From the NCBI GenBank assembly GCA_902809825.1, contig LR778114.1, forward strand, positions 124,001 to 188,000: a stretch of DNA of 64,000 bases. Direction: 5' to 3'. This stretch comes from Candidatus Hydrogenisulfobacillus filiaventi (lineage in GTDB: Bacteria > Bacillota > Sulfobacillia > Sulfobacillales > R501). Below, one piece after another: positions 18,402 to 46,165 of this stretch (position 1 is the first letter of the stretch; each line of letters starts with the position of its first letter). The notes under the pieces were generated by a model. It searched no databases. It was not told the origin of the DNA and saw only the letters and a list, made by a program, of their open reading frames with translations. The translations under genes were made by a program, and so were the position numbers.

Positions 18402-20321
18402 ATGACGACGGGCAAGCGGTATCACCTGCGCATCGGCGGGATGACCTGTCCCGCCTGCGAGGACCATGTGGCGGAGGCGCTGCGCTCGGCGGGGGCGGAA
18501 GCGGTGACGGCCGATTACCGGCGCGGGGAGGCCTGGTTTGCACTGCCCCCAGGGGCGGGATGCGATCCGGCGCCGGCGGTGAACGCGGTGCGCGCGGCGG
18601 GGTACGATCCGCAGGCACTGGAGGAGGAGCCGTCCACGGACGGGGATGGGGCCGGGGAGCCGGTCCGCTACTACTGGTCCATCGGGGGGATGACCTGTCC
18701 CGCCTGTGAGGAGCACGTGGCGGAGGCCCTCCGCTCGGCGGGAGCGGAAGCGGTGACGGCGGACTACCGGCGCGGGGAGGCCTGGTTCGCGGTGCCGCCC
18801 GGGGCGGGCTTCGACCTGGAACGGGCACGGGCTGCCATCGCGGCGGCCGGCTACCGGCCCGGCGACCTGGAGGTGGTGGAGGCGGTCCCCCGCTTCCCGG
18901 CGGTGCAGGCCGGGAGCGGGGCACCGGATTACGACCTCCTCATCATCGGCTCCGGCAGCGCGGCATTCGCCGCGGCCATTGAGGCCCGCGAGGCGGGGCA
19001 GCGGGTGGCGATGGTGGAGCGGGGGACGGTCGGCGGCACCTGCGTCAACATCGGGTGTGTGCCCTCGAAGTGGTTCCTGCGGGCGGGGGAGGTGTACCAG
19101 GAAGCCCGGCTGCCCCGGTTTCCCGGCGTCGCCAGCCGGGTGGAGCCGCCGGACCTGGGGGCCCTTAAGGCCGGCAAGGACCGGCTGGTGGAGCGCTTGC
19201 GCGGACAAAAGTATGAGGACCTGCTGGCGGACTACGCCATCGACTGGATTCCGGGCGAGGCGGCCTTCCGGGACCCCGGGCATGTGCGCGTGAACGGACG
19301 CGAGCTGTCCGCCCGCGCCTTTCTCATCGCTACCGGTGCCCGGCCGGCCCGGCCCGCTATCCCGGGCCTGGAGGCGGTGCCGTACCTGGACAGCACTGCG
19401 GCGCTGGACCGGACGACGGTGCCGCGCCGCCTGCTGGTGATCGGGGCGGGCTACATCGCTCTGGAACTGGGCCAGTTCTTCCACCGGCTGGGGGCAGAGG
19501 TGACCCTGGTGCAGCGGGGGCCCCGCCTGCTGCCCGGCTACGACCCGGAGGTGGGTCAGGTGGTGGCGGAGGTCCTGGCCGCCGAGGGGATCCGGGTGGT
19601 CACCGGAGTGCGGCCCCGGCAGGTGGACCAGCGGGGCGGGGAAATCCGGCTGACGGTGGAGACCCAAGGACAGGTGCGGGTGCTGACCGGCGATACCCTG
19701 CTGGTGGCCGCGGGCCGGCAGCCGAACACCGAAGGCCTGGGCCTGGACCGGGCCGGGGTCGCGGTGGGGCCGCGCGGGGAGCCGGTCGTGGACGCCACCC
19801 TGCGGACCACCAACCCCCGGGTCTACGCGGCCGGCGACGTGCTGGCCGGTCCACAGTTCGTGTACGTAGCCGCCTATGAGGGCAAGCTGGCGGCTCGTCA
19901 TGCCCTCGGGCTGCCCGATGCCCGGCCGGTGGACCTGAGCGTGGTCCCGGCGGTCACCTTCACCGACCCCGCCATCGCCAAGGTCGGCCTGACGGCGGCG
20001 GAGGCGGCGGCGCAAGGGATCGCCGTCGACAGCGCCGTGCTGCCCCTGGACGCCGTGACCCGGGCCCTGGTCAACCAGGACACCCGGGGCGTGTTCAAGG
20101 TCACGGCCGAGCGCGGCAGCGGCCGCATCCGCGGGGTGCAGGTGGTGGCCGCCCAGGCGGGCGAGGTCATCTATGCCGCCACCCTGGCGGTGCGGTTCGG
20201 ATTGACGGTCAGCGACCTCACCGATACCCTGGCCCCCTACCTTACCATGGCGGAGGGCCTGCGGCTGGCCGCGCTGACGTTTCACAAGGACGTGGGCCGG
20301 CTGTCCTGTTGTGCCGGCTAG
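18402..20321 (+). CDS. merA: Mercuric reductase with two HMA domains
   Basis: A 639-residue MerA that reduces Hg(II) to volatile Hg(0) with NADPH. Two heavy-metal-associated domains occupy residues 8-75 and 91-160, each with GMTCPAC (Cys16/Cys19 and Cys99/Cys102); most of the two domains is nearly identical, indicating a recent internal duplication. The flavoprotein core begins DLLIIGSGSAAFAAAIEA. The redox pair Cys214/Cys219 lies in GTCVNIGCVPSK, and the C-terminal vicinal pair Cys636-Cys637 (LSCCAG) completes the Hg-delivery path. No merT/merP/merB is seen nearby. Divergent control by the CmtR-like sensor, rather than a MerR, is notable. A terminator follows at 20403. Confidence 0.95.
   Translation: MTTGKRYHLRIGGMTCPACEDHVAEALRSAGAEAVTADYRRGEAWFALPPGAGCDPAPAVNAVRAAGYDPQALEEEPSTDGDGAGEPVRYYWSIGGMTCPACEEHVAEALRSAGAEAVTADYRRGEAWFAVPPGAGFDLERARAAIAAAGYRPGDLEVVEAVPRFPAVQAGSGAPDYDLLIIGSGSAAFAAAIEAREAGQRVAMVERGTVGGTCVNIGCVPSKWFLRAGEVYQEARLPRFPGVASRVEPPDLGALKAGKDRLVERLRGQKYEDLLADYAIDWIPGEAAFRDPGHVRVNGRELSARAFLIATGARPARPAIPGLEAVPYLDSTAALDRTTVPRRLLVIGAGYIALELGQFFHRLGAEVTLVQRGPRLLPGYDPEVGQVVAEVLAAEGIRVVTGVRPRQVDQRGGEIRLTVETQGQVRVLTGDTLLVAAGRQPNTEGLGLDRAGVAVGPRGEPVVDATLRTTNPRVYAAGDVLAGPQFVYVAAYEGKLAARHALGLPDARPVDLSVVPAVTFTDPAIAKVGLTAAEAAAQGIAVDSAVLPLDAVTRALVNQDTRGVFKVTAERGSGRIRGVQVVAAQAGEVIYAATLAVRFGLTVSDLTDTLAPYLTMAEGLRLAALTFHKDVGRLSCCAG
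18426..18816 (+). repeat. Internal duplication of the HMA domain in merA
   Basis: The first unit starts at about 18426 and the second at about 18678. They share runs such as CATGTGGCGGAGGC-like codons and encode the identical stretch HVAEALRSAGAEAVTADYRR, with only a few substitutions elsewhere. Confidence 0.75.
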
Positions 20322-22513: not shown

Positions 22514-23928
22514 GGCGGGGTCCGGACGAGGACGAGGCCGGCCGCCGCCAGGGCCGCCCCGGCCAGGAATACGCCTTTGAACGCCATCAGGAACCAGGCC
22601 GCGTAGTGGGGATAGCGGGGGCTTAGGTCGGGACTGAGCCCATGGGCCATCCAGATGAGCGAGAGCAGGATGGAGGCCAGGGCCACCCCCAGGGAGCGGC
22701 CTAAGTTCCGCTGGATGGCCAGCAGGCTGGATCCCAGGCCCAGGTCTCGCGGTGGGACCGATCCCAGGACGGCGGAGTTGTTGGGGCTGGAGAAGAGGCC
22801 CGCCGCCACCCCCACCAGGGCCAGCAGGATCAGCACCGGCCAGACCCCGGCGTGCCGGCCGGGCAGCAGCACGAAGCCCAGGTCGGCGGCGGCGAACAGG
22901 AGCAGGCCGGCCCGCGCCGGCCAGAGGACGCCGATGCGGTCGGCCAGGCGTCCGCCCCAGGGCGACACCACGATCATGAGCAGGGCCTGGGGGGTCATGA
23001 GCAGGCCAATCAAGCCCACCGGCAGGTGCAGCACCTGGCCCAGGTAGATGGGGAGCAGGAAGGCGGGGAACATTAGGAGCATGAAGTAGTCCAGCCCCGC
23101 CAGCAGGTTGAGGGTGAAGGGCGGGTTGCGGAAGACGCTTGGCGGCACCAGGGGCCGGGCAGCCCGGGCCTCCCGGCGCACGAACAGGGCCGTCAGCCCG
23201 GCGGCCAGGGCGGTCAGGGCCCATCCCCGCGGGCTGTGCAGCAGGGACAGCCCGAGCTGCAGGGCGGTCACCGCGGCCAGGAACCAGGCGGCGCCCGCCC
23301 AGTCCAGGCTGGGCAGGGGATGGGCCGGGTCGCGCGGGAAGCGGGGCAGGTAGTGCCAGGAGGCCCATACCCCCCACAGGCCGATGGGCACATTAATCCA
23401 GAAGATGCTGCGCCAGCCCCAGGTCGCGGTCAGCAGCCCGCCCAGGGGCGGCCCGAAGAGGGTACCGGCCGCTACCACCGACCCGATGAGGCCCAGGGCT
23501 TGTCCGCGCCGTTCGCGCGGGAAGAGGAGGGCCACGATGGCCATGACGTTGGCCTGGATGGTGGCCCCGCCCAGGCCCTGGAAGGCGCGGGCCGCCACCA
23601 GCACCGCAAAATCCGGGGCCAGGGCGGAGAGGATGGAGCCCAGGGTGAAGGCGGCGATGCCAGCCACGAACACCTCCTTCCGCCCCAGGCTGTCGGCCAG
23701 GCGGCCGACCAGGGGCAGGGTGCCGGTAATGACCAGCAGATAGGCGGTGATGGCCCATTGCAGGATGGTGACCGGCAGCAGGAAGCGGTGCGCCAGCACG
23801 GGCAGGGCTACGTTCACCACGCTGGCGTCCACATTGACCATGAAGGTGCCGGTGGTGGCGGCGGCAAAGGCGGCCCAGAGGGCCCGGCCGCGCAGGGCCT
23901 GTCCGGCGGCGGTGCGGGAAGCCAGCAT
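22447..23928 (-). CDS. MFS multidrug exporter, DHA2 (EmrB/QacA) type
   Basis: A 493-residue permease with about 14 hydrophobic helices. Helix 1 has TTGTFMVNVDASVVNVALPV, with the Asp typical of the 14-TM DHA2 group. Motif A appears as GRLADSLGRKEVFV and motif C as GSVVAAGTLFGPPLGGLLT. ATG 23928 follows AAAGGAG. It lies 35 bases after the PadR regulator on the same strand, so the pair resembles a regulator-plus-drug-exporter operon. Proton-driven efflux of an organic compound is expected. Confidence 0.9.
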   Translation of the reverse strand: MLASRTAAGQALRGRALWAAFAAATTGTFMVNVDASVVNVALPVLAHRFLLPVTILQWAITAYLLVITGTLPLVGRLADSLGRKEVFVAGIAAFTLGSILSALAPDFAVLVAARAFQGLGGATIQANVMAIVALLFPRERRGQALGLIGSVVAAGTLFGPPLGGLLTATWGWRSIFWINVPIGLWGVWASWHYLPRFPRDPAHPLPSLDWAGAAWFLAAVTALQLGLSLLHSPRGWALTALAAGLTALFVRREARAARPLVPPSVFRNPPFTLNLLAGLDYFMLLMFPAFLLPIYLGQVLHLPVGLIGLLMTPQALLMIVVSPWGGRLADRIGVLWPARAGLLLFAAADLGFVLLPGRHAGVWPVLILLALVGVAAGLFSSPNNSAVLGSVPPRDLGLGSSLLAIQRNLGRSLGVALASILLSLIWMAHGLSPDLSPRYPHYAAWFLMAFKGVFLAGAALAAAGLVLVRTPPYAHAARREPEPGTGSPRSARS

Positions 23929-23963
23929 GCGGTGCTCCTTTCCGGAGGGGAGGGGGCGCGGCC

Positions 23964-24335
23964 TTAGCCGGAACGGCCGGGGGCGGCGGAACCGGTCCGG
24001 TTCCAGGCTGCCCAGCTGTCCAGGAAATAGTCCAGGTTGCGGCGGCTGCGGGCAATCTCCTCGGCCCATTCCGCCAGGCGGGCCGGGGCGCGGTCGGTGG
24101 CCCGGTAGACGTGCCGGGCGGGTCCTCCCGGGCCCGGGACCCACTCGGAGGTGACCAGCCCCGCCGTTTCCAGGTCGCGCAGGCAGCGGTAGACGGCGGG
24201 GTCGTCAGCGGTGCTGCCTCCCGGCAGGCTCCGCCGCAGCAGGGTGGCCACTGCCCGGCCGTGCAAGGGGCCGTGCAGGACCACCATGAGGAGCACGAAG
24301 GCCGGCAGGTGGCGACCGTGAGCCGGCATCCCCAT
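23964..24335 (-). CDS. PadR-family transcriptional regulator
   Basis: A 123-residue protein with a winged-helix N-terminal domain: FVLLMVVLHGPLHGRAVATLL, DDPAVYRCLRDLETAGLVTSEW and RHVYRATDRAPARLAEWAEE, the PadR pattern of HTH, wing and dimerisation helix. It has a short C-terminal helix (subfamily 2-like length). ATG 24335 has GAGGAGG at 8-base spacing. It sits under a clear promoter with a repeated ACACTATRATG motif and probably autoregulates itself and the exporter downstream. Confidence 0.85.
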   Translation of the reverse strand: MGMPAHGRHLPAFVLLMVVLHGPLHGRAVATLLRRSLPGGSTADDPAVYRCLRDLETAGLVTSEWVPGPGGPARHVYRATDRAPARLAEWAEEIARSRRNLDYFLDSWAAWNRTGSAAPGRSG

Positions 24336-24371
24336 CCCCGTTTCCTCCTCACATGTGTCCGTTTCACGCTC

Positions 24372-24401
24372 ATCATAGTGTGAATAACATTATAGTGTCA
24401 A
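24372..24401 (-). promoter_or_regulatory. padR-exporter promoter with repeated operator motif
   Basis: On the minus strand TTGACA (24396-24401) is followed after 18 bases by TATGAT (24372-24377). The spacer and -10 contain a direct repeat, ACACTATAATG then ACACTATGATG, about 17 bases apart. This would place a PadR dimer across the promoter. Confidence 0.7.
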
Positions 24402-24417
24402 TCCCATTATGACGACC

Positions 24418-24444
24418 GGCGGCCGATCCCGGGGATCGGCCGCC
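24418..24444. terminator. Perfect 12-bp hairpin
   Basis: GGCGGCCGATCC (24418-24429) pairs perfectly with GGATCGGCCGCC (24433-24444) around a 3-base loop. It lies 14 bases past the stop of the 49-codon gene and just upstream of the padR promoter, so it probably ends the CWB2/small-protein transcript. Confidence 0.65.
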
Positions 24445-24457
24445 ACTGGGGCGACGG

Positions 24458-32817: not shown

Positions 32818-34332
32818 ATGACGGAGAGCGGCCTTTATGCCCTGATGCTGCGGACGGCGGGCAGTATGGGCCCGACCATCGAGCGGGCGCTGGCGGCCGG
32901 GGTGGTGCTGGATACCTGGATGAATGGGCAGGCGGAGGAGCACATCACCCCCGAGGCGGAGCGGGTGCTGGATGCCGCCACCCAGGAATGGGCGCGGCGG
33001 GCACAGGCCGCGCGCGCCGTCTTCCCGACCTATCCCATGCCACCGGTTTATGTGGAGGCGGTGTTCAACGACCTCCTTACCGGCACGGCCCTCTACGTGG
33101 CCCAGCAGGCCACCGGCACCCGGACGGTGAGCGCGGCCCATGCCGGCACTGCCGTGCGCCGCCTGGCGGCGTTCGTGGCCGCTGAACCCGACGGCATCAC
33201 CGCCGCCGCCCGCTACCATGCCGTGGTGGCCAGCCATGAGGACCTCAACGCGGTGGCCTATTACGGGCGTATGCGCCGGGAGGATTTCCTGTGGGGCACC
33301 TTGCACCGCCCCTGGCTGGACCGGCTCCTGACCCCGGAATGGACGGTCTACACCCAGGCCGGCGTGCTGCGTACGGTGGTGGACGGCGAGGGGGAGTGGG
33401 TGACCCTCACCCCGGCGGGGCGGGCCCTGCTGGACCAGCTGCGCCGCACCTTGGAGGCGGCGGGCGAGTTCGCCTGGCGGGCCAACGCCCAACGCTGGGT
33501 CATTTTCGGGGAGACGGACTACGACCGCGTCTTCGACACCGTGTTTCCGGATTCCTCCTCCTCCACCCGGGAATGGGTCGCGCGCCTGCCGCTGCCGCCG
33601 GGGGCGCAGGTGCTGGAGATCGGGGCCGGCACCGGGCGGGTGACCTTCGAGTTGGGGCTGGCCGACCGGGTGGCGGCGGTGGGCGGGCAGCTGATCGCCC
33701 TGGAGCCGTCGGCGGCCCTGCTCTCCACCCTGAAGGCCAAGCGGGCCCAGCGGGGGGCGGACCACGTCACCCTGGTGCAGGGGGTAGCGGAGGCCATCCC
33801 CTATCCGGCCGACCGGTTCGACCTGGTGCTGGCGGTGGCGGTGCTGCACTTCACCGAGGTGGAGCAGGCGGTGGCGGAGATGACCCGGGTCACCCGGCCG
33901 GGCGGCCTGGTGGCCGCTCGTAACCCCAATCCTGCCGACCTGCTCAGTATCCCCATGGTGGCCACCTGGTTCCGGTCCCTACGGCAGCTGGCGGAACGAC
34001 TGCAGGTGCCGCTGGGGGAAAAGCAGGGCGTCGCCCCCGGCCGGGTGGAGGCGGCCTTCCGGCAGGCGGGGCTGGTGGAGGTGCAGCAGCACCGGGTGCC
34101 CCTGCGCGTCACCGCCGCCGACCCTGACGCCTTCCTGGCCTTCGTGCTCAAGGGCGGGGCGTTCTATCAGAACATCCTGGCCCGGCTGCCAATCGAGGAG
34201 CGGTGGGCGCTGCTGGAGCTGCTGGGCCGGCAGGGGCGGGAGCTGGCCCTGCACACCCGGCCGGAGGAACAGGCGATGGTGGCCAGCAGCAGCGTCATCA
34301 CCGGCCGCAAACCGCCGGAGCCCGCCCCCTAG
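32818..34332 (+). CDS. SAM-dependent methyltransferase with large N-terminal domain
   Basis: A 504-residue protein. The C-terminal half (about residues 230-420) is a class I methyltransferase: AQVLEIGAGTGRVTFELG (motif I), LIALEPSAALL, and FDLVLAVAVLHF (motif IV). The N-terminal 225 residues are helical with no motif I recognise (TPEAERVLDAATQEWARRAQ) and probably bind the substrate or mediate dimerisation. ATG 32818 has AGGTGG 6 bases upstream. The acceptor molecule is unknown. It is convergent with the chemotaxis gene across a bidirectional hairpin. Confidence 0.78.
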   Translation: MTESGLYALMLRTAGSMGPTIERALAAGVVLDTWMNGQAEEHITPEAERVLDAATQEWARRAQAARAVFPTYPMPPVYVEAVFNDLLTGTALYVAQQATGTRTVSAAHAGTAVRRLAAFVAAEPDGITAAARYHAVVASHEDLNAVAYYGRMRREDFLWGTLHRPWLDRLLTPEWTVYTQAGVLRTVVDGEGEWVTLTPAGRALLDQLRRTLEAAGEFAWRANAQRWVIFGETDYDRVFDTVFPDSSSSTREWVARLPLPPGAQVLEIGAGTGRVTFELGLADRVAAVGGQLIALEPSAALLSTLKAKRAQRGADHVTLVQGVAEAIPYPADRFDLVLAVAVLHFTEVEQAVAEMTRVTRPGGLVAARNPNPADLLSIPMVATWFRSLRQLAERLQVPLGEKQGVAPGRVEAAFRQAGLVEVQQHRVPLRVTAADPDAFLAFVLKGGAFYQNILARLPIEERWALLELLGRQGRELALHTRPEEQAMVASSSVITGRKPPEPAP

Positions 34333-34347
34333 GGGGGAGGCGGGCTC
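34318..34347. terminator. Bidirectional hairpin between convergent genes
   Basis: GAGCCCGCC (34318-34326) pairs with GGCGGGCTC (34339-34347); it includes the methyltransferase stop codon and precedes the end of the chemotaxis gene. Confidence 0.55.
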
Positions 34348-34365
34348 GGCTGCAGGGGCAGGGGT

Positions 34366-36336
34366 CTAGAAGCGGAAGCCGGCGGCCACCGCCTCCAGAC
34401 TGCCGGCCACCTCGGCCAAGCCGTTGGCCTGGCCCTCCAGCTGTTCCATGGTGGCGGCCATGTCATGGGTGCTCGCGGCCACCTCTTCGGTGGAGGCGGC
34501 GGTCTCCTCGGAGATGGCGGCCAGCCCCTGCAGGATGTCGCTCACCGAGTTGGAGGCGGCGGCCATCTCTTGGGAGGCCTGGCTGTTCTCGCGGGCGGTG
34601 CGGGTGATCTGCTGCACGCGTTCCGCGACCAGGTCGCGCCGTTCCTCCAGGCCGCCTGAGGTCTCCACCAGGGTCCCGATCTCCTCCGTCACCCGCTGGA
34701 TGGCCTGCTCCATGGCGTCCAGGGCTTGATGGGCATCCCGGGCCAGGCGCTGGCCTTCCTCCACCGCGCTGCGGCCCCGGCCCATGGTTTCGACCGAGGA
34801 CTCCACCCCGTTCTGGATGCCATGTACCAGCTCGGCAATCTCGTCGGTGGCGCGGGCCGCGCGCTCTGCCAGCTTGCGTACCTCGTCCGCCACCACCCCG
34901 AAGCCGCGCCCGTGCTCGCCCGCCCGGGCGGCTTCGATATTGGCGTTGAGGGCCAGCAGGTTAGTCTGGGCGGCGATGTCGGAGATGGTCTCCACGATGG
35001 CGCCGATACGGGCGGAACGCTGCCCCAGCTGGTCCACCGCCCCGGCCGTCTCTTCCACCACCTCGGCGATGCGGCCCATCGCGGCCAGGGTGGCCTCCAC
35101 CTCCTGGCGGCCCTGGCGGGCGGTGGCGCGGGTGTCTTCGGCGATGGCCCGCACCCGCTGCACGACGGCGCCGGTGCCGCGGATGGCCTCCACCATGCGC
35201 TCCAGTTTGTCGGCGGAGTCGTCCGCAGCCTGGGCCTGGCCTTCGGCCCCCGCCGCCACCTGCTCCACCGAGGCCTTCAGCTGCTGCATGGTGGTGGCGA
35301 TCTGCTGCAGGCCATGCGACTGTTCGGTGGTGGCCTCGGCCACCTGCTGGACGGCGGTGGCTACTTGAGAGGCGGCCCCCCGTCCGTCCCGGGCCATGGT
35401 GCGCAGGCGGGCGACGTTGTCCTCCAGGGTGCGGCTGGTCTCCTGGATGCGGCCCAGCATCGCGCGCAGGCGCTCGTGCATCTCCTTGAGGGCCAGGCCC
35501 AGGGTGTCCTGGGGCCCCAGGGGTTCGGGCGGCACGGTCAGATCGCCCCGGCCCACCGCCTCCGCACTCCGGGCCAGGGCCCGCATGTAGGCCATGAGCC
35601 GGCGGAAGTCCTCGGCCAGGCGGCCCAGCTCATCCCGGCTGCGGAAGCGGACCTCCCCATCCAACCGCCCTTGGGCCAACGCCGCCCCCAGCCGGGCCAT
35701 GCTGATGGTGGGCCGGATCATGAGGGCTTCCGTCAGGATCCAGATGACGAGGCTGGCCAGCAGGAAGAGGCCGATGGCCCACAGGGAGACCCCGATGAGG
35801 GTGTGCTGCACCCGGACCACCTCTGCGGTCTCGCGGGCGTTGCGGGCGGTGATGAGGGCGGTGATGCGGGCCAGGCCGGAACCGATGCCGACGGCAGGGC
35901 GGGCACTCTCCAGGCGCAGGGCGGTGCGCACCCGGCCTGCCGCCAGGCTGGCGTCCACCGCTGCCGCGGTGTTGCGGTAGGCAGCCAGTTCGGACTCCAC
36001 GCCGCGTAGGACGGCACCGGCCGCAGGGTCCCGGACGCTGCGGGCGAAGGCGGCCAGGCCGCGGGTGAAGGCGCGGCCGTCCGCGGCCTGGGTGGTCTCG
36101 AGGGTACCGGCGGGTAGTCCGGCTGCTGCCGCCAGCACGTAGGCGTTGCGGGCGGCGTCGTAGCGGTAGAAGGCGGCCTCCAGCCCCTGGGCGGCGGTCG
36201 CCTGGGTGTAACTACGGTTGAGGGCGTTGATTTCGGTCAGAGAGCGTTGACCGGAGTGGACCCCCCATAGGCCGGAGGCCACACTGATGCCCAGGACGAT
36301 GAGAAAGAGAACGGCCAGTTTAGCGCGTAACGGCAC
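34366..36336 (-). CDS. Methyl-accepting chemotaxis protein
   Basis: A 656-residue receptor. TM1 is about residues 8-28 ([19 protein letters not shown]), a helical sensory region of about 150 residues follows (four-helix-bundle MCP type), TM2 is [20 protein letters not shown], then a HAMP domain. The cytoplasmic signalling domain contains the conserved hairpin tip [20 protein letters not shown] and [23 protein letters not shown] 36336 follows AGGGAGGGGG. The ligand is unknown. No flagellar or other che gene lies in the window, so this is an orphan receptor. Confidence 0.92.
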
Positions 36337-40924: not shown

Positions 40925-41361
40925 CAATTCCGGGAGATGTTACTACTCTATCCGACTAGATCCTGACACAGGGCTCTGTTATAGTGCGCTTAGGGACCAT
41001 CCCCAATAACTACCTGGTTCTGGCCTCCAGATAGCGTTAAGCCACGACGTTCGTCCATCCACCAGACCCTGCTGGCACCACCGTTTGCGGAGGATACTGA
41101 GGGCAAGGGGACAAACAGGCACTGGTTTCCCCGGGGTCGCCGGTGGGAATGCCGGCTGCAGGATGGAAGCGGGATACGGAGTCCCGCGGGGGTTGCGCAC
41201 AGGCGGGCGCGACCGGGCGTTCCGGCACCGCGATCTTGGCCTCCTTGAATCGGGAGCCCCTGAGGCAGACGGAAGATGAGCCCGTTCGAGGGCACGAGGC
41301 AAACAGCCGCATGAAAACGGGTTCGGACGGGGAACACCAGCGAAGAGGGGGAGCGGTACGG
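40925..41361 (+). other. Leader region of nucleotidyltransferase copy 2; possible ribozyme or intron remnant
   Basis: These 437 bases hold no convincing gene. TATAGT at 40980-40985 is followed by GTGCG (40984-40988), the 5' consensus of group II introns, but I see no domain V or reverse transcriptase downstream. A stem GAGCCCGTT (41278-41286) with AACGGGTTC (41316-41324, one G-U pair) lies some 40 bases before the ATG, comparable to the stem before copy 1. GCGGGA/TCCCGC forms another hairpin near 41170. The last bases before the ATG, gggggagcggtacgg, resemble those before copy 1. No clear origin is proven. Confidence 0.35.
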
Positions 41362-42319
41362 ATGCGCGCAATCATCCTGGCGGGGGGCCGTGGCCAACGG
41401 CTAATGCCGTTAACGGACGGGCGGCCGAAGCCCCTGGTGCCGTTTCTGGACCGGCCGATTCTGGACTACACCCTGGCGCAGCTGGGCGCGGCGGGGTTCA
41501 CGGATGTGGTGATCACCCTGGGGTACGAGGGGGCGCGCATCCGGGCCCACGTGGGGACGGCAGCCGCTGGGGGGTCCGGGTTGGCTACAGCCAGGAGGAG
41601 ACGGCGCTGGGCACGGCGGGAGCGGTGCGGCTGGCGCTGGCGCGGTTTCCGGCGCGGGAGCCGGTGCTGATCGTCAGCGGGGACGGGCTGACGGACTTTG
41701 ATCTGGCGGGATTTTACCGGCGGATGCGGGCGGCCCGGGCGGAGGCGGGGCTACTGGTGGCGGCGGTGGCGGACCCGCGGGCGTACGGGGTGGTGGAGCT
41801 GGCGGGGGACGGCCAGGTGGTGGGATTTGTGGAGAAGCCGGCGTGGCTGATGGAAGGGGCGGTGGTGAACACCGGCATCTACTACCTGGAGCCGGGGCTG
41901 CTGGCGGGGGTGCCGGTGGGGGTGCCGGTGGACTTTGGGCACGAGCTGTTTCCGCAGTGGATTGCGGAAGGGCGGCGGGTGCGCGGGGAAGCCGGGCGGG
42001 GGTACTGGTGCGATGTCGGGACGGTAGAGCAGTACCGGGCGGCGCACGAGGCGGCGCTGGACGGGCGGGTGCGGCTGCCGTGGCCGGTGGCGGTGACGGT
42101 GGGGCCGCGGGGCCAGGGGCCGGTGTATCTGGGGCCGGGGGCGGTCGTGGAGCCGACGGCGGCGGTGGGGCCGTACGCGGTGATAGGGGCCGGGGTGCGA
42201 GTGATGCCGTGGGCACGGGTGGAGCGGTCGATTGTGGGGCGGGCGGCGGTGATTGGGGCGCACAGCCAGCTGAAGGGGGCGGTGGTGGCCGAGGAGGCCC
42301 GGCTGGACAGCTACGCCAC
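41362..42319 (+). repeat. 958-bp near-identical direct repeat, copy B
   Basis: This is the partner of 1578-2535. The two lengths are equal because each copy has one base that the other lacks. Identity begins at the ATG and ends in the beta-helix codons. Confidence 0.9.
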
Positions 42320-42473
42320 GGTGGAGGAGAACGTGGTGGTCGGCCGGCGGGCGCACCTGGGCTACAGTGCCCACGTCTTCCCGGGCACCCGCATCGGGGT
42401 CGGGGAGGCGGTGGCTCCCGGCAGCCAGCTCTACCAGCACCAGGGCAAGGCCAACTTCCGGCAGACCGTCTAG
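41362..42473 (+). pseudogene. Sugar-phosphate nucleotidyltransferase copy 2, one frameshift
   Basis: The same enzyme as at 1578: N-terminal nucleotidyltransferase domain and C-terminal hexapeptide beta-helix. Here the break is early: the G-run at 41553-41556 has four G where copy 1 has five, so the frame is lost after IRAHVG (about residue 64) and resumes in the reading frame used from 41625 to the stop at 42473. Adding one base gives a 370-residue protein. The second site is intact here (GGTGGGGCCGCGG). Bases 41362-42319 are the direct repeat; the last 51 codons (AHLGYSAHVFPGTRIGVGEA) are only similar to copy 1. It has no glycan genes downstream, so it may be a paralogue used elsewhere or a recent duplication. 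Confidence 0.8.
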
Positions 42474-44039: not shown

Positions 44040-44456
44040 ATGCAGCGCTATACGGTGACCGTGGAGCGCAGGGATGCCCGGCATGCCGAGGCGGCGGTGC
44101 GGGCGTTCCGGCTGACGCTGGGGGCCCGTCGGGCGGACCTCGAGGCCGGGTTCAACCCGGTGGAGACCCTGCTGGCGGCCTTGGGGGACTGCCTCCTGAC
44201 CAGCCTGGACTTGGTGGCGGGGCTCTCCCGCATTCCCCTGGACGCCGTCCGCATCGAGGTGAGCGGGGAGCGGCAGGATCGGCCGCCTACCCTGACGGCG
44301 GTGCGTTACCGGCTCTTCGCCCGCACCCCTGTGCCGGCGGAGCGGTTCGGCCGGCTGGTGGCGCTGGCGGAGCGCAACAGCACGGTGTTTCAGACCTTGT
44401 CCCGCGCCGTGCCGGTGACGGGGGAGTGGGCGTGCCGGGATCCGGGGACGGGATAG
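44040..44456 (+). CDS. OsmC-family protein lacking the second catalytic cysteine
   Basis: A 138-residue OsmC/Ohr-fold protein. The FNPVETLLAALGDCLL helix carries Cys51, matching the first peroxidatic Cys of the family. The second helix, normally centred on a Cys-Pro (CPV...TL), reads AERNSTVFQTLSRAV, so the resolving cysteine is absent. It may be a thiol-binding or non-peroxidase YhfA-like member. ATG 44040 has GGGAGGCGG upstream. Confidence 0.85.
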   Translation: MQRYTVTVERRDARHAEAAVRAFRLTLGARRADLEAGFNPVETLLAALGDCLLTSLDLVAGLSRIPLDAVRIEVSGERQDRPPTLTAVRYRLFARTPVPAERFGRLVALAERNSTVFQTLSRAVPVTGEWACRDPGTG

Positions 44457-44470
44457 GGCGGCGGGGGAAA

Positions 44471-44566
44471 CCGTGACCCCTGGGGCGCCGCCGTGGTCAC
44501 GGCAGGTCATCCGGGCGGGGGTATCCATGTGGCCGGCCGGCGGCACAGAGTTGCCCCGCCGGCCGG
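44471..44566 (+). terminator. Two hairpins downstream of the OsmC-like gene
   Basis: CCGTGACC (44471-44478) pairs with GGTCACGG (44495-44502), and CCGGCCGGCGG (44533-44543) pairs perfectly with CCGCCGGCCGG (44556-44566). They lie between the OsmC-like stop and the RNA promoter at 44660 and probably insulate the two units. Confidence 0.5.
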
Positions 44567-44659
44567 GTCAAAGGCCAGCCCGGGCCGTTTCCGCGGGGCG
44601 AGCCGGGCGGTCCGAATTCCGAAATGTTTGAAACTGAAGGGATCCATTTCCGGAGACGG

Positions 44660-44668
44660 TGCTATAAT
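44660..44668 (+). promoter_or_regulatory. Extended -10 promoter of the candidate RNA
   Basis: TGCTATAAT is a perfect extended -10. With six bases spacing it predicts a start at G44675, which is exactly the first base of the first stem of the RNA. The upstream sequence holds no good -35. Confidence 0.75.
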
Positions 44669-44674
44669 GAAGGT

Positions 44675-44857
44675 GCCAGGAGGAAGACCACCGAAGAGGT
44701 GGGGCCCCTGGTATCAATCCGGACAGTGTGTCCGGCGATCTGGTGAGTCGCCTGAGAACGAGTGCCGATCGGCCGCCAGATCAGTTCTAACGAGAATAAC
44801 GAGAGCGCCACCAGCCTCCAGGGCGGAAGGAGCGAGGCCGGTGGCGCATCGCTTTTT
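44675..44857 (+). ncRNA. Candidate stand-alone structured RNA, about 183 nt
   Basis: The transcript would start with GCCAGG, which pairs with CCTGGT (about 44707-44712). An inner hairpin CCACC-GAAGA-GGTGG follows, then CCGGACA-GTG-TGTCCGG, then a 9-bp stem GATCTGGTG (44737-44745) with CGCCAGATC (44774-44782). AGAAC (44755-44759), inside that stem's loop, can pair with GTTCT (44784-44788) outside it, a possible pseudoknot. A terminator hairpin GCGCCACC (44805-44812)/GGTGGCGC (44840-44847) is followed by five T. No start codon with a site or downstream plus-strand gene follows (the next gene is convergent), so a trans-acting RNA is likelier than a riboswitch. It does not match tmRNA, RNase P, SRP or T-box as I know them; 6S is not excluded. 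Confidence 0.5.
44805..44857 (+). terminator. Terminator of the candidate RNA
   Basis: An 8-bp perfect stem, GCGCCACC/GGTGGCGC, extended inward by GCCT/AGGC across one mismatch, precedes ATCGC and five T (44853-44857). It also lies close to the end of the convergent 44867 gene. Confidence 0.6.
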
Positions 44858-44866
44858 GCGCGGCGG

Positions 44867-46165
44867 TTAGTCCGGCCGGCCGCCGGTCTGGGGGCGCCCG
44901 CCCCGGTAGCCGACCCAGGCCGCCCCCGCCAGGCTGCCGATGTGGGCGGCCAGCAGCAGCAGCACCAGGGCCCCGGCCAGGCGGACGGCGGAGATGCTGC
45001 CGGCGGTCACCCCCCAGCCCAGGGCCAGGACGAGCAGGGTGCCGAGGATGGTGCTGACCACGGCCCCCTGGGCCGGACCCAGCTGGCGGGCGATGAAGAA
45101 GGCCTTCTGCGGGGGGCCGGGCATCCGCCGGGCCAGGGCCACGGCGGCGATAAAGGGCAGGATGCGGGACTGATAGCCCAGGATGAAGAGCAGGGCCCCT
45201 CCGAACATCAGCTCCACCGCCAGGGCCGGGTCGGCGGGCAGGGCCAGGGCGGCGAGGAACCAGAGCACCCAGCCGGCGATAACCCCCACCAGTACGCGGT
45301 CGAAGGCGGGCGCCCGGCCGCTGCGGCCGATGGTCCAGAGCTGGCGGCCGGTCCAGAGGGCGGCCAGCATCCAGAGCCCGGCGGCGGCGTTCAGGAGGGC
45401 GGGCACCTCCCCGGCCAGCCAGAACAGGAACAGCCCCGCCCAGGCCAGCACGGGCGGTCCGGCCACCCGCTGGCCCTCCACCCGGGCCATGGTGAACATC
45501 GGTACCAGCTTGAGCTCCACCCCCATGACCAAGGTGGCCACCCAGGCGACCAGGGCGGTGGAGATATGCAGACCCAGCACGTAATAGGGGGCGGGGCGGC
45601 CGAGGCTGAAGCCGAAGGCCATGGTTAGGCCCCACAGCCAGGTCAGGTTGAGGCCGGCCAGCGCGGCCAGGATGAGGGCGGTGAGGGCATCGGGCCGGCG
45701 GGGGCTGGTCAGCACCCGGCGGGCGTCGAGCCAGGTCAGCCAGACCAGCGCCGCCGCTGTGACGGTGCCGCCGGCGGCCATCCACCCCGCTCCGGCGCCC
45801 CGCATCCCCGCCACCAGTAGGGTGACGCCGATGGTGTAAAGGATCCCCTGGCTCCAGGCCATGACCGGTTCCACCGGCGGCCGATCGAAGACCACCGGGA
45901 TCCATTGGTACAGCAGGCCGCTCATGGTCATGGTCAGGAAGCCCAGGGTGTAGAGGTGCATCAGCCCCAGCACGCCGGGGGCGGCCCAGTTGTTGGCGGC
46001 CAGGGCCGGGGCCTGATGGAGCAGGGCGACGCCTGCCCAGGCCAGGAAGAACCAGCCTAGGGCCAGGAAGAAGGCCGGGGCCATGGGACCGGGGGCCCGG
46101 GCGATGTTGATGGTAGGCTTGTAGCTGCGGGCCATTTCCTCCAGGCGTCGGGTTTCGTCCGACAT
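44867..46165 (-). CDS. Polytopic membrane protein, heme-copper oxidase subunit I / NnrS-like
   Basis: A 432-residue protein with about 12 helices. LMHLYTLGFLTMTMSGLLYQ followed by WIPVVF and GLHISTALVAWVATLVMGVE resemble the His-bearing helices of CcoN/NorB-like and NnrS proteins. Only a few of the expected His ligands are present, so it is probably not a full oxidase; a heme-binding or NO-related membrane role is inferred. ATG 46165 follows AAAGGGGGG. No partner cytochrome gene lies next to it. Confidence 0.6.
   Translation of the reverse strand: MSDETRRLEEMARSYKPTINIARAPGPMAPAFFLALGWFFLAWAGVALLHQAPALAANNWAAPGVLGLMHLYTLGFLTMTMSGLLYQWIPVVFDRPPVEPVMAWSQGILYTIGVTLLVAGMRGAGAGWMAAGGTVTAAALVWLTWLDARRVLTSPRRPDALTALILAALAGLNLTWLWGLTMAFGFSLGRPAPYYVLGLHISTALVAWVATLVMGVELKLVPMFTMARVEGQRVAGPPVLAWAGLFLFWLAGEVPALLNAAAGLWMLAALWTGRQLWTIGRSGRAPAFDRVLVGVIAGWVLWFLAALALPADPALAVELMFGGALLFILGYQSRILPFIAAVALARRMPGPPQKAFFIARQLGPAQGAVVSTILGTLLVLALGWGVTAGSISAVRLAGALVLLLLAAHIGSLAGAAWVGYRGGRPQTGGRPD

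Follow-up and report, generated by a model that had tools for sequence, protein, structure and literature searches.

Autonomous intergenic small RNAs (sRNAs) of bacteria are transcribed from their own promoters, end at Rho-independent terminators and are poorly conserved; they act in trans, with or without Hfq. An RNA candidate of ~185 nt in the thermoacidophilic bacterium Candidatus Hydrogenisulfobacillus filiaventi R50 resembles them in its predicted promoter and terminator, its intergenic position, its poor conservation and its unpaired loop and linker segments, but it is more structured than many pairing sRNAs and is known here from sequence alone. The 6S RNA of the same genome is similar in length and is likewise a stand-alone gene with a TATAAT promoter; the candidate, however, does not fold as a single long hairpin around a central bubble. 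A third likeness, to SRP RNA (RF00169), is superficial. The tip of the candidate's terminator, CAGG...GGAAGGAGC, recalls the SRP tip, which reads CAGGCCCGGGAGGGAGCAG in this genome, but the candidate has G opposite G and one C-G pair. Mimicry of the SRP tip was rejected because the SRP tip pairing is not formed and Rfam gives no match, and the resemblance was taken as chance.

The R50 genome, of 2,570,337 bp and 70.55% G+C, belongs to family R501 (PMC10080006), and according to the strain's authors no genome lies nearer to it than Sulfobacillus (PMC10080006). Non-coding RNA of the deep-branching Sulfobacillales seems to be almost unstudied, a literature search on Sulfobacillus and noncoding RNA having yielded incidental papers only, and the RNA described here would, if expressed, be a first regulatory-RNA candidate in its family. 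The biotechnological interest of the strain lies in its excretion of amino acids that it makes from H2 and CO2 (PMC10080006). RNA-seq reads of R50, from O2-limited growth at 0.2% and 7.5% air saturation, have been published (PRJNA616204; PMC10080006), and such transcriptome reads could reveal whether the candidate is expressed and whether oxygen affects it. The window analysed is a stretch of 64,000 nucleotides corresponding to C1:124001-188000 of the closed genome.

The candidate lies in a 410-base intergenic gap, with an OsmC-like gene on its left and the membrane-protein-like gene P0001 on its right (Table 1), and a genome sequence search found it as a single copy. G+C content is 50-64% over 44601-44800, versus 74-82% in the surroundings. 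As the initial annotation had stated, no plus-strand gene lies downstream: the neighbour is on the minus strand, and the gene layout of the window holds no plus-strand gene 3′ of the candidate for almost 3 kb.

An extended -10 element had been claimed at the head of this locus, and it is present as TGCTATAAT. With both strands counted, TGNTATAAT occurs once in the window, at this element, against 0.05 occurrences expected from shuffles, and TATAAT occurs three times in the 64 kb. A scan of the promoter region found no -35 hexamer at usable spacing upstream of TGCTATAAT. An exact TATAAT also lies directly upstream of the 6S and RNase P RNA genes of the same genome, where TTGCCA and TTGACC, respectively, stand 17 bases upstream of it; its occurrence at the expected place in these two genes makes the predicted start of the candidate credible. 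Initiation had been assigned to G44675 as the first base of the first stem. This base, 7 bases beyond the -10 hexamer, is indeed paired within stem 1, but the stem can start at 44672 if GGU is counted (G672-C, G673-U, U674-A), so the 5′ end is fixed only to within a few bases. As judged from the letters themselves, TGCTATAAT would give the candidate the promoter of its own that marks an autonomous intergenic sRNA. The inverted repeat listed in Table 1 covers the upstream promoter region and is a possible, weak candidate operator.

Table 1. Features of the RNA candidate, its neighbours and the housekeeping RNA genes of the genome (window positions, or genome positions where marked C1).
Feature	Position	Strand	Basis and remarks
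OsmC-like gene	44040-44456	+	Upstream neighbour of the RNA candidate
Imperfect inverted repeat TCCGAAATG ... CATTTCCGGA	44618-44654	+	Seen in sequence; one extra base in second arm
Extended -10 element TGCTATAAT	44660-44668	+	Sequence; without matching -35
Stem-loop 1	44672-44715	+	Predicted fold; z -3.14 for 44672-44712; start 44672 or 44675
Stem-loop 2	44719-44735	+	Predicted fold; CCGGACA/UGUCCGG, 7 bp, loop GUG
Stem-loop 3	44737-44782	+	Predicted fold; GAUCUGGUG/CGCCAGAUC, 9 bp and 4 inner pairs
Candidate H-type pseudoknot	44755-44788	+	AGAAC 44755-44759 complementary to GUUCU 44784-44788
Purine-rich linker	44788-44804	+	Direct repeat: two UAACGAGA copies, 9 nt apart
Intrinsic terminator	44800-44857	+	Long G+C-rich hairpin 44800-44851 and TTTTT 44853-44857; z -3.33
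P0001, membrane-protein-like gene	44867-46165	-	Convergent neighbour; without Pfam match
6S RNA (RF00013)	C1:1361885-1362078		73.1 bits, over cut-off
SRP RNA (RF00169)	C1:2457865-2457964		Over cut-off
RNase P RNA	C1:1923211		Over cut-off
tmRNA	C1:2029338		Over cut-off

The predicted fold of the candidate is exceptional for the window. For 44675-44860 (186 nt) the folding energy is -85.3 kcal/mol (z -3.87), with 0 of 200 shuffles as good, and the segment 44672-44854 folds at -90.4 kcal/mol (z -5.28, 25 shuffles), which places it second against 852 tiled window/strand samples of 25 shuffles each. The opposite strand at the locus gives a weaker value (z -3.86). Similar z values occur elsewhere in the window, in the minus-strand samples at 34351 and 24301, and z ≤ -3.5 was reached in 9 of the 852 samples (~1%). 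Third-codon-position G+C at the locus is 0.56-0.72 in the frames tested, versus 0.85-0.94 in the neighbouring genes, and G+C is flat across codon positions; the locus is therefore not coding, in agreement with the earlier statement that no reading frame with a site is present and as in autonomous intergenic sRNAs. The sole frame seen with a ribosome-binding-like site has 9 codons, begins with GTG at 44841 and crosses the terminator. Stem-loop 1 holds AGGAGG at 44678-44683, and no start codon lies within range of it.

The architecture first described for this RNA survives in large part. All four successive stems appear in the predicted fold, as does the terminator with its five T, so that the candidate carries at its 3′ end the intrinsic terminator of an autonomous intergenic sRNA. 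The loop of stem-loop 3 comprises 19 nt, mostly unpaired in the predicted fold. The proposed pseudoknot fared less well: the complementarity of AGAAC and GUUCU is real, but 9.5% of shuffles yield a 5-bp match in this geometry, and GUUCU is predicted to pair locally with AGAAU 44793-44797 in a competing hairpin (44784-44797). On both counts the pseudoknot is weak, and the 5-bp match is not beyond chance. The purine-rich linker may be a contact for a protein or Hfq, or a pairing site.

The initial annotation had also proposed a comparison with Rfam, which was run and matched no family. Rfam 15 gave no match at or above the gathering cut-off over the window, and in a permissive search of 44500-45000 all matches were far below cut-off, with a best E of 0.3. 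This best match, to the L31 leader, spans 17 bases and was taken as chance. The 6S, SRP, RNase P and tmRNA copies of the genome are all encoded outside the window, which rejects each of them as the identity of the candidate and bears out the earlier failure to match it to the last three. A CRISPR array of 87 repeats (GTTTCAATTCCTCATAGGTAGGCTACGAAC) adjoins Cas1 at C1:73874-79603, also outside the window. For this array, the only one examined, blastn-short found no match between the repeat and the candidate; a tracrRNA, which would need an anti-repeat to GTTTCAATTCCTCATAGGTAGGCTACGAAC, was rejected on this evidence.

Overall, the promoter, the fold, the terminator, the non-coding composition, the lack of a downstream gene and the exclusion of known RNAs support a stand-alone RNA gene. 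We judge it somewhat probable that a free-standing small RNA gene occupies 44672/44675-44857, its product most likely being a trans-acting regulator; the RNA is an orphan in distribution, ordinary in kind and probably lineage-specific. We infer that RNA polymerase with the main sigma factor would start at about 44673-44676 at the extended -10 promoter and stop at the five-U tract, these being the presumed mature ends of one RNA of ~185 nt, which would fold into three hairpins and the terminator hairpin. The RNA may pair with target mRNAs through the unpaired hairpin-3 loop (44751-44769), the purine-rich linker with its two UAACGAGA copies, or both. An Hfq-like protein possibly assists such pairing: one is encoded in the genome at C1:1089071-1089247, scores 29.1 bits against a Pfam cut-off of 27 and contains KHAVNAIVPP, which makes Hfq-assisted pairing in trans possible, and the purine-rich linker and U-tract are compatible with an Hfq-dependent sRNA. 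Counting against the sRNA reading are the lack of a homologue, the lack of a -35 element and the similar z values in other windows of this G+C-rich genome.

The abundance of structure and the short single-stranded segments would also suit an autonomous RNA that acts by binding protein, as 6S, CsrB/RsmZ and Y-like RNAs do, or a structural or RNP RNA, rather than one that pairs with mRNA. The region of stem 1 contains GGA motifs, as does the apical loop of the terminator (GGAAGGA), but such motifs are to be expected of a G-rich sequence. The candidate also lacks a long open hairpin like that of 6S, and 6S itself exists elsewhere in the genome; we consider this reading unlikely.

Relatives of the candidate were sought with R2, a covariance model of the core 44672-44801 built from the single sequence. 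No credible homologue was found in 42 order, 154 class and 398 phylum-sampled genomes, which include no other R501-family genome; given the limited reach of a single-sequence model, this is weak evidence for a true absence of homologues. The best match outside the source genome (G062, 31.3 bits) was rejected as antisense inside a protein gene, which we take to be uracil phosphoribosyltransferase-like. A match of 23.7 bits in G023 looked on inspection like coding sequence, presumably resembling ribB, and those in G028 and G030 were short or weak. Comparison with 100 relatives by blastn returned only short matches of 16-49 bases, mostly G+C-rich and many of them to the terminator. Phages and plasmids gave no useful match, and viral contigs gave none to two exact patterns. 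The P0001 protein, used as a synteny probe, has homologues that are common in the order; the OsmC and FAD oxidoreductase genes that flank the RNA here are absent beside them within the flanks examined.

The convergent arrangement with P0001, whose stop codon lies ~10 nt from the U-tract, suggests another reading, in which a minus-strand transcript reads through the RNA and the resulting duplex tunes the membrane-protein mRNA. The terminator scan is consistent with this, giving a plus-strand terminator only and none evident for the minus-strand transcript. However, an antisense partnership would not account for the plus strand having a promoter of its own and a conspicuous fold, and no RNA homologue was found in the order where P0001 homologues are common; we regard it as distinctly unlikely. 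Doubtful to the same degree is the view that the locus is not a gene at all but a chance promoter-like hexamer with G+C-rich hairpins, or a mere terminator region between convergent genes. The absence of detected conservation, the other low z values among the tiled samples and a pseudoknot within chance all fit this view. Against it, a unique extended -10 exactly upstream of the second-strongest fold, with a terminator at the end, would be an unlikely coincidence, and the local drop in G+C likewise speaks for a gene.

The initial annotation had described a possible new stand-alone RNA, of which the stand-alone gene is upheld by the evidence set out above, whereas a new class is not, since a single genome holds the only copy and the searches found no homologue. 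That the candidate is the founder of a class of structured, autonomously transcribed and pseudoknotted RNAs confined to the R501 family, perhaps serving as an RNP scaffold, is improbable. A riboswitch or T-box leader was rejected by the criterion of a regulated same-strand gene directly downstream, the next gene being on the opposite strand; the earlier judgement that a riboswitch is unlikely holds for this reason. Although the order of promoter, structured domain and terminator is that of a transcription-attenuating leader, an orphaned riboswitch-like leader or attenuator, of which promoter, aptamer and terminator stayed behind when the regulated gene was lost or moved away, is highly improbable in view of the ~3 kb free of plus-strand genes, the failure of permissive Rfam thresholds to bring up any cis-regulatory family, and the predicted fold, which shows no obvious pairing of an antiterminator.

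Other features of the window were recorded alongside the candidate. The strongest fold z of the sampled window, -5.4, belongs to the minus-strand sample from 34351, which neighbours a strong hairpin (GAGCCCGCCCCC/GGGGGGAGGCGGGCTC) at 34310-34370 between convergent ORFs. At 24350-24450, repeated ATTATAGTGTCAATAA-like elements and a minus-strand TATAAT lie near the start of the minus-strand ORF 23393-24376 and adjoin a strong G+C-rich hairpin (GGCGGCCGATCCC/GGGATCGGCCGCC); the segment looks like an operator/promoter region. A direct repeat of 135 bp with 88% identity (18431-18565 and 18680-18814) lies within a large ORF region. A nucleotidyltransferase/hexapeptide gene is present in two copies, at 1563-2607 and 41348-42391, ~39.8 kb apart and 98% identical over 1,046 bp, with identity near 100% for most of the length and falling in the last ~70 bp. 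The copies differ by one-base gaps in G-rich runs, and in the second the Pfam NTP_transferase domain is split over two frames; we take the pair to have arisen recently by duplication or gene conversion and to contain frameshifts or assembly errors.
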